A stretch of 33,674 bases of DNA from an uncultured Acholeplasmatales bacterium (lineage in GTDB: Bacteria > Bacillota_I > Bacilli_A > Acholeplasmatales > Anaeroplasmataceae): assembly GCA_944324795.1 (NCBI GenBank), contig CALUXR010000019.1:1-33674 (forward strand). The letters run 5' to 3'. Shown one piece after another: positions 17,810 through 20,585 of the stretch (position 1 is its first letter; every line of letters starts with the position of its first letter). Under the pieces are notes generated by a model. The model was not told where the DNA came from, ran no database searches, and was given only the letters and a program-made list of their open reading frames with translations. Made by a program: the position numbers and the translations under genes.

Positions 17810-17832
17810 AAAAAAGGGGAATTAATCCCCTT
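17810..17832 (-). terminator. Terminator of the SipW/TasA-like operon
   Basis: AAGGGGA (17814-17820) and TCCCCTT (17826-17832) form a 7-bp stem with a five-base loop. On the minus strand it is followed by six Ts. It ends the operon whose last gene stops at 17846 and lies just before the ABC-pair promoter. Confidence 0.88.
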
Positions 17833-17845
17833 AAAGTATAAAATA

Positions 17846-19096
17846 TTATAAATAAGCTATTTCATGTGTAATAGAATTAAAATAACCAATAAGCGTATTA
17901 TCAGTATATGTAACTTTATACCAATTATCTCCCTTGCTACTATCTTCTGCATAAATAACTTCATATCTAGATCCAAAACTCATATTTTCATTTACTAATT
18001 GATGATATAAAATCAATTCTTGTTGAGGCATATTTTTTATTATCCAATAACACATATTAAGAATAGCTTCTTTTTGCTCATCAGATAATATTTCTGAACC
18101 ATTATATTTTGAATCAATTACACTTATAACCAAATTAGAAGATTCAAACTTAGCTTTACAAAGAATCTTAAAACCATTATCAATTGCTTGATACATTGAT
18201 ATTTCATAATTATTATGATTTAAAATATATTCTTTAGAGACATATAAGCCTACACTTAATTGAACATTATTTTTTCCTACTATATGTATATGTTGAATAT
18301 TTGAAAGATTAACATCTTCTGAAGTATTTCCGCCACCAAAAGTAATCCCAATAACATTTTCATTTTCAATAGCTAAATTTAAATTTGCTATATCAATATA
18401 TATTACATTAGGAAGACTTGAACTAATAATATTAAAAACATCATTTTGTAAATTAACAGAGTTATTATATGATGATAATATAATTTTATATGCATAACTA
18501 ATTTCAACATCTATATCAAATAGTTCATTTTCAGCATTGTAAAAATAAATATTTCCATCACTCAACTGCATAGTCGAAATATTAGTGTATGAATCAATAA
18601 TATCACCCGTAGTGAAATCTCTAACATATTCAAAATAATCATTTTTTGAAATAATATTATTTGCAAAAATAATTTTATTGTAATATGCTAGACAATTTTG
18701 CCTATAATCATCAATTGAAAAATTTGAAAAATCAAAAATAAATTGAATTTCTAATATTTCTTTTTGAGTCTTACAATCAATTTTTTTATAAATAGCAAAT
18801 TTTAATATTTCATTTTTTGTGGCATTATTAAAATATATTTGTAAGCTTTCTAATTTATCACCTGGATCTACCATATTAGATAATTCTAAAGGCGTACCAG
18901 AGACGTGAAACCCGGAATTTTTTAAAATTTCTTTTTGATTATCAATTGATATATTAGCATTAACATTTAAATTACCACTACCATTAATTTTAGCTGATGT
19001 TGCTGCATATATAGCTAAAGGTAGAGAAATACTAATAATTATTGATAGTGATAAAATAGTAAAAAGTGTTGCTATTAAGCGAATTTTTCTATGCAT
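17846..19096 (-). CDS. Secreted protein with SipW-type signal peptide, unknown function
   Basis: 416 aa from the ATG at 19096, which overlaps the signal peptidase stop by eight bases; a GTG at 19105 is also open. The N-terminus MHRKIRLIATLF...LAIYA-ATSAKINGSGNLNVNA closely parallels that of the 188-aa protein of the same operon (GIWA-ATAAKITGTDGQLSV). Both resemble SipW-dependent signal peptides, with likely cleavage after the Ala near residue 31. The mature part has a beta-rich outline and many Asn/Ser/Tyr. Lone Cys residues are at roughly 110, 135, 305 and 345. No known domain is recognised. It is inferred to be an accessory, anchor or minor component of the structure made by the 188-aa protein. 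Confidence 0.75.
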   Translation of the reverse strand: MHRKIRLIATLFTILSLSIIISISLPLAIYAATSAKINGSGNLNVNANISIDNQKEILKNSGFHVSGTPLELSNMVDPGDKLESLQIYFNNATKNEILKFAIYKKIDCKTQKEILEIQFIFDFSNFSIDDYRQNCLAYYNKIIFANNIISKNDYFEYVRDFTTGDIIDSYTNISTMQLSDGNIYFYNAENELFDIDVEISYAYKIILSSYNNSVNLQNDVFNIISSSLPNVIYIDIANLNLAIENENVIGITFGGGNTSEDVNLSNIQHIHIVGKNNVQLSVGLYVSKEYILNHNNYEISMYQAIDNGFKILCKAKFESSNLVISVIDSKYNGSEILSDEQKEAILNMCYWIIKNMPQQELILYHQLVNENMSFGSRYEVIYAEDSSKGDNWYKVTYTDNTLIGYFNSITHEIAYL

Positions 19097-19868
19097 TATT
19101 ATCACTACCCCTTCTATTTGTATTAATTTTTAAAATAATATTAACTTTCTTGTTGCCATTATTTATAATTTTAATTGGTTTACCATCTTTAGTTTGTAAT
19201 CGTAGATAAAGATTGACAGGTTTAATATTAGATATATAAGCTTTATTCATTCTATTATAGTTTGAAATAACAACATGTTTCTTCTTTTCTTCAGGCTCTT
19301 CAGTCAATAACATAACTAATTCCCAACTTAAATAGATTAACATTATTATACAAGGAATAATAATTAAACAAATAATACCAATCCTAGACACTACAAAACT
19401 AATAATATCATTTAAAACGGGATTTAAAGGCTTTCCAACTCCTAAAACAAAATCATAAGGAACATAAAAAGTATCATCATTTGGATTACTTGTTCCTTTA
19501 GTTAAATATGAATAATTACCAAATTCATCAACTTTTATATCAATTATTTCATGAATCCAAATCGCTTTATTACTCATATCTAAATCATCTATATTTTTAC
19601 CATAATTAGCAACATCACGATAAAAAGCTATAATATCACCAATTTGATATTCTTCTTTTTTATTAATTGCTACGACATCACCAATATAAAGTTCGCTTGC
19701 TTCCATACTTTTAGATTGAATTATTCCAAGTCTAATTCCTAATATATTAGTATGTGTAGATAATGTTGTAATAGCACAAATAATTGAAAAAATTAAGACA
19801 AAAAGAAAAAGGAGGTCTAATATAGCATTTAAAACAAATGATAATGTTTTATTTTTAGATAATTTCAT
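19089..19868 (-). CDS. sipW: SipW-type (ER-type) signal peptidase I
   Basis: 259 aa. An N-terminal membrane helix (~12-36) is followed by an outer catalytic domain with the serine motif SKSMEASELYIGD (Ser54 before Met55). The base is a His (His106, WIHEII) instead of the bacterial Lys, then YLTKGTSNPNDD (Asp131/132). A second helix (~158-188) and a basic cytosolic tail (~190-259) complete it. Ser/His chemistry marks the SipW/archaeal/ER branch, which in Bacillus processes TasA and TapA. Here it is flanked by two genes whose products carry matching signal peptides, so they are its probable substrates. A strong AAAAGGAGGT site precedes it. The extra basic tail is longer than in Bacillus SipW. 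Confidence 0.88.
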   Translation of the reverse strand: MKLSKNKTLSFVLNAILDLLFLFVLIFSIICAITTLSTHTNILGIRLGIIQSKSMEASELYIGDVVAINKKEEYQIGDIIAFYRDVANYGKNIDDLDMSNKAIWIHEIIDIKVDEFGNYSYLTKGTSNPNDDTFYVPYDFVLGVGKPLNPVLNDIISFVVSRIGIICLIIIPCIIMLIYLSWELVMLLTEEPEEKKKHVVISNYNRMNKAYISNIKPVNLYLRLQTKDGKPIKIINNGNKKVNIILKINTNRRGSDNNA

Positions 19869-19906
19869 TTGTTGACCTCCTTTTTATTCTGTTTTCTTAA
19901 ATATTT

Positions 19907-20473
19907 TTAACTAGCAACATTCAAATCCATTTCTAAAGAAAAACCTGAATTATTAATTGCAGCGCCATAATTACCGTTATATGTAATAGTAACAGTAAGT
20001 GTAATTGAAGATTTTTCGCCTTCATTTGAAGGATCAATAGTTAATACACCACTATTATAACCATCACCTGTAACTTTAACACTAAAGTTACTATTATCTA
20101 CTAATTCTACACTTAAAGTACCATCTAAAGCAGTTAAATCATCTGTATAATCATTTGTAACAGTTATAGTAAATGATTTAGATTTATTCTCATCTGTTTC
20201 TGCATAAGTATATGAAGGTAAGTTTACAGTTTTTGTAGCATAATTTTGTGATGCATCATCTTCAACACTTGTATCAAATGTTATGGTTTGTTTATCACTT
20301 TCGCCAAAATTAAATTCAATAGTAGCTAAAATATCAGTTGTTGCTGTAACTGATAATTGACCATCAGTACCTGTAATTTTAGCTGCTGTAGCTGCCCAAA
20401 TACCTACACATAGTACTACTAGCACTAATGCCATCGCTGTTAATGTAGAAAATATTCTAAATTTTCTTCTCAT
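19907..20473 (-). CDS. TasA/camelysin-like secreted surface protein
   Basis: 188 aa. The N-terminus MRRKFRIFSTLTAMALVLVV is followed by GIWA-ATAAKITG, closely like the TasA signal region (GTWA-AFND). Cleavage by the adjacent SipW-type peptidase is expected near Ala27. The mature part is Thr/Ser/Asp/Asn-rich, acidic, without visible Cys in its body, and built of alternating beta strands (VNLPSYTYAE, SFTITVTNDYTDD, SSITLTVTITYNGNYGAAIN), as in the single-domain beta-sandwich fibre proteins TasA/CalY. No cell-wall sorting signal is seen. It is the first gene of the operon, with GGGAGG as ribosome site. Its promoter is a perfect consensus carrying a G8 tract in the spacer. Family assignment rests on signal type, composition and neighbours. 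Confidence 0.8.
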   Translation of the reverse strand: MRRKFRIFSTLTAMALVLVVLCVGIWAATAAKITGTDGQLSVTATTDILATIEFNFGESDKQTITFDTSVEDDASQNYATKTVNLPSYTYAETDENKSKSFTITVTNDYTDDLTALDGTLSVELVDNSNFSVKVTGDGYNSGVLTIDPSNEGEKSSITLTVTITYNGNYGAAINNSGFSLEMDLNVAS

Positions 20474-20502: not shown

Positions 20503-20531
20503 ATTATACCCCCCCCGTATAGTTTTGTCAA
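20503..20531 (-). promoter_or_regulatory. Consensus sigma-A promoter with poly-G spacer (likely phase-variable)
   Basis: On the minus strand TTGACA (20526-20531), a 17-bp spacer (20509-20525) and TATAAT (20503-20508) match the consensus at all twelve hexamer positions and the optimal spacing. Eight of the 17 spacer bases next to the -10 are G. Loss or gain of Gs by polymerase slippage would give 15-, 16-, 18- or 19-bp spacers and lower activity, which is how several phase-variable surface-protein promoters work. It drives the TasA-like/SipW operon. Confidence 0.93.
20509..20516 (-). repeat. Homopolymeric G8 tract inside a promoter spacer
   Basis: Eight consecutive C on the plus strand (G on the minus strand) directly abut the -10 hexamer. 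It is the longest G/C run I see in this A+T-rich window; the next I noticed is five Gs near 9165. Its exact position within the spacer argues against chance. Confidence 0.95.
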
Positions 20532-20555: not shown

Positions 20556-20585
20556 AAAAAACGCTTTTAAATTTATAAAAGCGTT
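20556..20585 (-). terminator. Terminator of the two small genes upstream
   Basis: AACGCTTTTA (20560-20569) pairs with TAAAAGCGTT (20576-20585), and six Ts follow on the minus strand. It lies between the stop at 20613 and the promoter of the TasA-like gene, so the latter starts a separate transcript. Confidence 0.88.

Follow-up and report, generated by a model that had tools for sequence, protein, structure and literature searches.

A SipW-type operon with a lineage-specific partner protein and a probable poly-G phase switch in an uncultured Acholeplasmatales bacterium

In Bacillus subtilis, the tapA-sipW-tasA operon encodes a dedicated signal peptidase, SipW, together with two substrates. The mature N-termini of these substrates are near-identical (AFHDI in TapA and AFNDI in TasA). 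TapA donates its N-terminal strand and starts the TasA filament, and the N-terminus of TapA alone (residues 44-57) is enough for biofilm (PMC10151520, PMC9674648). SipW operons are already known beyond Bacillus. In Clostridium perfringens, the exported subunit of the sipW-bsaABCRSD operon forms filaments, and its bimodal expression requires a two-component system. In B. cereus, sipW-calY1-bc_1280-calY2 (CalY, TasA, CapP) combines filament subunits with a non-homologous, chaperone-like partner. Control of a surface protein by a promoter homopolymer is described for meningococcal porA and opc, where the length of a G or C tract sets spacing or expression (van der Ende 1995; Sarkari 1994; cited in PMC5084427 and PMC3447861).

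The locus studied here lies in the window, by which we mean the whole stretch of 33,674 nucleotides that was analysed, on contig 19 of a 1.70-Mb assembly (99.5% complete) from the Acholeplasmatales lineage. We class it with the SipW-dependent systems; its partner protein is unrelated to known ones and specific to the lineage, and a poly-G tract probably acts as its phase switch. That its products build a surface fibre, and that its promoter is probably phase-variable, is the reading we hold to be rather probable. Like tapA-sipW-tasA, it has a dedicated SipW-type peptidase, two co-encoded substrates and a beta-sandwich subunit as modelled, and the mature N-terminus of the partner mimics that of the subunit. 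Unlike tapA-sipW-tasA, the order is subunit-peptidase-partner, neither substrate is detectably homologous to TasA or TapA, the partner is larger and has a different body, the host is probably wall-less, and a G8 tract lies in the promoter. With sipW-bsaABCRSD it shares its place in a non-Bacillus Firmicute, whereas the candidate switch here is the poly-G tract rather than a two-component system. The partner resembles CapP by description only, and camelysin models are unmatched here. The likeness to porA and opc spans two phyla, and the tract here lies 5' of a predicted fibre operon and is met again across the family. The original prediction for this DNA mentioned neither the poly-G promoter nor the genome's other SipW operon nor the probable lack of a cell wall.

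A three-gene unit around a Ser/His signal peptidase

The operon consists of three minus-strand genes in series, and all three open reading frames were confirmed. The first encodes an exported 188-aa beta-sandwich protein with a SipW-type signal, proposed to be the fibre subunit (20473-19907). It is followed after 38 nt by the gene for a predicted 259-aa SipW/ER-type signal peptidase (19868-19089), which overlaps by 8 nt with the gene for an exported 416-aa protein, the proposed fibre initiator or base (19096-17846). Terminators flank the unit at both ends, an intrinsic one immediately 3' of the 416-aa gene (17814..17832, minus strand) and a terminator-like hairpin between the upstream neighbour and the operon promoter (20560..20585, minus strand). 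The original prediction had described a self-contained SipW operon in a non-Bacillus genome, with the order fibre-like protein, peptidase, large partner and with two matched substrates. Order and host agree with this description, and the substrates are exactly two and always occur together in relatives.

The same prediction had named Ser54 and His106 in place of a Ser/Lys pair in the peptidase, and both residues are invariant in 6/6 orthologues. In NCBIfam, the protein was matched by NF046067 (SipW; E 3.9e-15, 55.9 bits where 190 are required) and by TIGR02228 (sigpep_I_arch; E 7.8e-13, 48.6 bits where 51.85 are required). Since it stays below the curated cut-offs of both models, it was filed as SipW-like and not as a SipW equivalog. 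In an alignment with human SEC11A, the histidine pairs with histidine and Asp131/Asp132 pair with the downstream DD. The KGD motif of SEC11A is KG[T/S] in the proteins studied here, the first conserved aspartate being replaced by Thr or Ser. The catalytic part is flanked on each side by one hydrophobic segment, and a tail of ~70 aa is present in addition. The peptidase gene adjoins the genes of its two putative substrates, and the signals of these two match.

Co-occurrence of the three genes in relatives had been proposed as a check, and the result supports the unit: all three are found in the same order and orientation in six of the eight genomes of the genus and are jointly absent from the remaining two. 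The flanks vary among genomes and comprise ATP synthase genes, glnA, ABC transporters and unrelated genes, which argues that conservation attaches to the three-gene unit itself. In each genome with the operon, a profile of the N-terminus shared by the two exported proteins gave exactly two strong matches (E 2e-21 or better), and these are the two operon proteins. The next match in the genome of the window reached only E 0.095, and the two genomes lacking the operon held no comparable match. The profile was built from the operon proteins themselves, so its informative part is the absence of other matches.

The exported subunit and its partner

The AlphaFold2 model of the 188-aa protein is a beta-sandwich of moderate confidence (pLDDT 73.5; six sequences). 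In a Foldseek search with this model, FimA donor-strand pilins came first, weakly (E 1.1e-4, TM 0.42), and the TasA fibre (8aur) ranked 37th (TM 0.24). In VIA-align every Z was below 8, FimA stood level with unrelated beta-sandwiches, and TasA 8aur was absent among the listed rows; these scores make the fold evidence merely supportive. With ~12% identity and a TM of about 0.4, the resemblance to the FimA of type 1 pili is one of arrangement rather than of shown homology. It extends to the donor-strand assembly proposed below, whereas no usher or chaperone is seen here. The modelled fold is compatible with donor-strand pilins or with TasA, homology to neither being proven.

TasA and camelysin (CalY) sequence models (Pfam, NCBIfam, TIGR04088) did not match the 188-aa protein. 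The signals had been said to resemble that of TasA, which the curated model of the TasA signal, TIGR04088, does not bear out: it found nothing across the whole genome and was positive in the B. subtilis control. The suggested structural comparison with TasA gave a mixed answer, in that a beta-sandwich was modelled, with FimA ahead of TasA and homology to TasA/CalY not established. Searches of PDB sequences with the profiles of the fibre protein and of the partner returned chance-level matches only. The 188-aa family does reach into gut Clostridia, where relatives are encoded next to SipW (best HMM E 3e-19), and its homology to these SipW-adjacent proteins is full-length (hhalign E 1.7e-20).

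At SipW loci of Clostridia, a membrane-anchored protein of ~200 aa, paralogous to the fibre subunit (hhalign E 3e-17), is encoded directly 5' of the peptidase gene (L043 2135-2737, L048 5396-5992, L053 5230-5805 and L059 2487-3095). It is without the AA cleavage site and is possibly a fibre anchor.

The 416-aa protein had been placed in no recognized family, and none was found here: no Pfam or NCBIfam family reached E 1 for the window's protein, no TapA model matched, and the PDB gave no credible match. Its relatives were present in 6/160 genomes of the order and, in a class sample of 395 genomes, in four; every one of these belongs to this genus, and viral contigs contained none. The structure model is of poor confidence (pLDDT 60.2; six sequences) and is better for residues 270-410. 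A fold match to part of a large clostridial toxin (Foldseek E 3.5e-3, TM 0.18, VIA Z 4.5) was held as chance, because the model is mostly of low confidence and no sequence family matches.

The near-identity of the two signal regions, noted from the window's sequence at the outset, proved real by profile, hhalign and shuffling. The profile of the 416-aa family matches the first ~50 residues of the 188-aa protein in 6/6 carrying genomes (E 1e-4 to 4e-7). By hhalign, the two families are related over the first 46 columns, comprising the signal and the mature N-terminus (E 4e-11), and no relationship was found beyond them. Similarity lies above shuffled controls in the signal part and also in the ~18 residues that follow the invariant AA, and the post-cleavage similarity was reached by shuffled segments 0-3 times in 2000. 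The similarity extends ~15 residues beyond the likely cleavage site. Covariation of the two N-termini within the same genome ranked 6 of 120, which is suggestive and confounded by phylogeny.

A proposed donor-strand fibre at the membrane

We infer fibre formation, cleavage and switching from sequence and models, by which the three genes likely form a fibre operon. Both exported proteins would cross the membrane by Sec, and the Ser/His peptidase would cleave both substrates after the invariant Ala that precedes A-[TSR]-x. With its N-terminal segment, ATAAKITGTDGQLSV, set free in this way, each 188-aa subunit would insert that segment into the beta-sandwich of the next one, and donor-strand exchange would build the fibre. 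On the 416-aa protein a like segment, ATSAKINGSGNLNV, is joined to a different body, so that this protein would be a strand donor but probably not an acceptor. In the manner of TapA with TasA, it may start the fibre and stay at the base. The original suggestion that this protein is an anchor, cap or minor subunit gains support, because its similarity to the fibre-like protein does not stop at the likely point of cleavage, which is also the reported situation for TapA and TasA. A TapA-like initiator or base is the role favoured by analogy: as with TapA and TasA, the relationship of the 416-aa protein to the subunit is confined to its first ~46 residues, and a protein able to donate a strand while having a different body should start or cap a fibre.

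The base of such a fibre would probably sit at the membrane. The mraY gene is missing in all eight genomes of the genus and is kept in other genera of the family. This single gene suggests that peptidoglycan was lost within the family and that the genus is probably wall-less.

The full SipW-type signal and large novel body of the 416-aa protein, the best-modelled part of which is the C-terminal half (residues 270-410), would also suit a co-polymerized minor subunit or a tip adhesin rather than a base. We regard this as somewhat unlikely: with only the N-terminus shared, the protein should donate a strand and be unable to accept one, which would restrict it to one end. A base position for the 416-aa protein is kept as the preferred reading.

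A different possibility concerns the fibre itself. The 188-aa protein could be a surface protein that stays monomeric or is attached loosely, its 416-aa companion could act as an adhesin or enzyme, and the matched N-termini could be mere marks for the peptidase. The failure of the TasA/CalY models to match is in keeping with this, as is the large body of the 416-aa protein, which is unlike the Ig domain of TapA and has no recognizable fold. However, the shared similarity runs well past the point of cleavage, donor-strand pilins head the fold search, and tapA-sipW-tasA, sipW-calY and sipW-bsaA all yield extracellular filaments (PMC9674648, PMC13082335, PMC7395162). We therefore consider a system without fibres unlikely. 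The predicted surface fibres are retained as likely, with TasA/CalY homology of the 188-aa protein not established. If the fibre reading is true, a minimal set, three genes, extends SipW-dependent fibres to a gut lineage that probably lacks a wall. This would suggest that a strand-mimicking initiator arises anew in each lineage while the logic of peptidase and subunit is kept.

The poly-G promoter and its spread

The best promoter-like site of the region precedes the operon on the minus strand (20503..20531). It is a perfect TTGACA-17-TATAAT promoter with 12/12 consensus positions (TTGACA 20531-20526, 17-nt spacer, TATAAT 20508-20503). Eight Gs in the spacer (20509..20516, minus strand) directly abut the -10 box and form a candidate tract for slipped-strand phase variation. 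Slippage in this tract would alter the spacing of the -35 and -10 boxes, which is near-optimal at the 17 nt of the window, and could raise or silence transcription of the whole operon.

The poly-G promoter is kept 5' of the operon in five of the six carrying genomes. Orthologous operons have tracts of G8, G9, G8 and G6 with spacers of 15, 18, 18 and 16 nt, respectively. One orthologous operon (genome G004) has an ordinary promoter, TTGATA-17-TAAAAT, without a G tract, so the tract is not essential. Two orthologous loci that are 98.3% identical over 3061 aligned bases differ in the tract, with G8 in one and G6 in the other. Apart from the tract, their lengths differ by two single-base changes that lie further upstream, by a leader insertion of 36 nt and by an end effect, and no indels were found between them in the coding part. 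The tract-length variation seen in these sequences is among species representatives and not within one population. The leader of G006 (L030, upstream of 8287), which joins the promoter to the subunit gene, contains a 36-nt duplication by which the ribosome-binding site and first codons occur twice; it is missing from the near-identical G002 locus.

Only two G8 runs exist in the 1.70-Mb genome, one in each SipW-operon promoter (contig 19 and contig 3), against an expectation of ~0.08 for independent bases of the window's composition. The run on contig 3 sits in a TTGACA-17-TATAAT promoter just 5' of the second SipW-like operon, which encodes a 208-aa exported protein and a SipW-like peptidase (contig 3, 75700-77290; L033 5701-7290). 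A different cluster found in the order (L034-L037, L033) combines a single SipW-like peptidase, or two of them, with two large conserved proteins (~500 and ~620-770 aa); most of its loci also encode several exported proteins of the SipW type. Genes related to the L034-L037 cluster seem to come after the second SipW gene of the window's genome.

Among the order's 160 genomes, the pattern TTGACA-N(4-14)-G6-TATAAT occurred 32 times, in 15 genomes that all belong to the family of the window, and the same pattern read backwards occurred in none of the 160. In the 395-genome class sample, 21 genomes contained it, again with no hit for the backwards control. The genes behind these promoters include SipW operons, lipoproteins and other secreted proteins. 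By an automatic, conservative call, export was predicted for 7/16 genes behind poly-G promoters versus 0/46 neighbouring genes (P 2e-5). A hydrophobic N-terminus alone, which 47 of 111 background ORFs show, was dropped as a sign of export in favour of this stricter rule.

Although the poly-G always stands against the -10 box and recurs 5' of many genes, as a fixed promoter element (a protein-binding site or a DNA-shape feature of a regulon) would, we judge such an element improbable, because the tract varies from 6 to 11 but the non-G part of the spacer stays at 9 nt in 23/32 order promoters, because the two near-identical loci lie two Gs apart, and because spacers of 14-20 nt lie on either side of the functional optimum. 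A porA-like phase-variation switch is the probable function of the tract. More broadly, we tentatively propose that uncultured gut Bacilli possess a common poly-G-spacer promoter as a genome-wide device for phase variation of surface genes, which in this probably wall-less genus would drive SipW-dependent donor-strand fibres whose lineage-specific initiator, unrelated to TapA, mimics the N-terminus of the subunit; the whole of this proposal is possible rather than probable. The promoter is a directly testable contingency locus, as counts of G-tract lengths in existing metagenome reads would reveal, for uncultured gut bacteria, mixtures of ON and OFF states of surface fibres and of other exported proteins. 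Literature searches on phase variation found no report of poly-G promoters in these bacteria, and none was found on SipW in Acholeplasma.

In another family of Bacilli, one locus (L156, G481:C6:7000-26900) encodes at least seven secreted proteins, each with its own poly-G promoter (G6-G9). The proteins are mostly close paralogues with a C-terminus of the VPKTNDN...KRKENN type, and the locus looks like a phase-variable antigen array.
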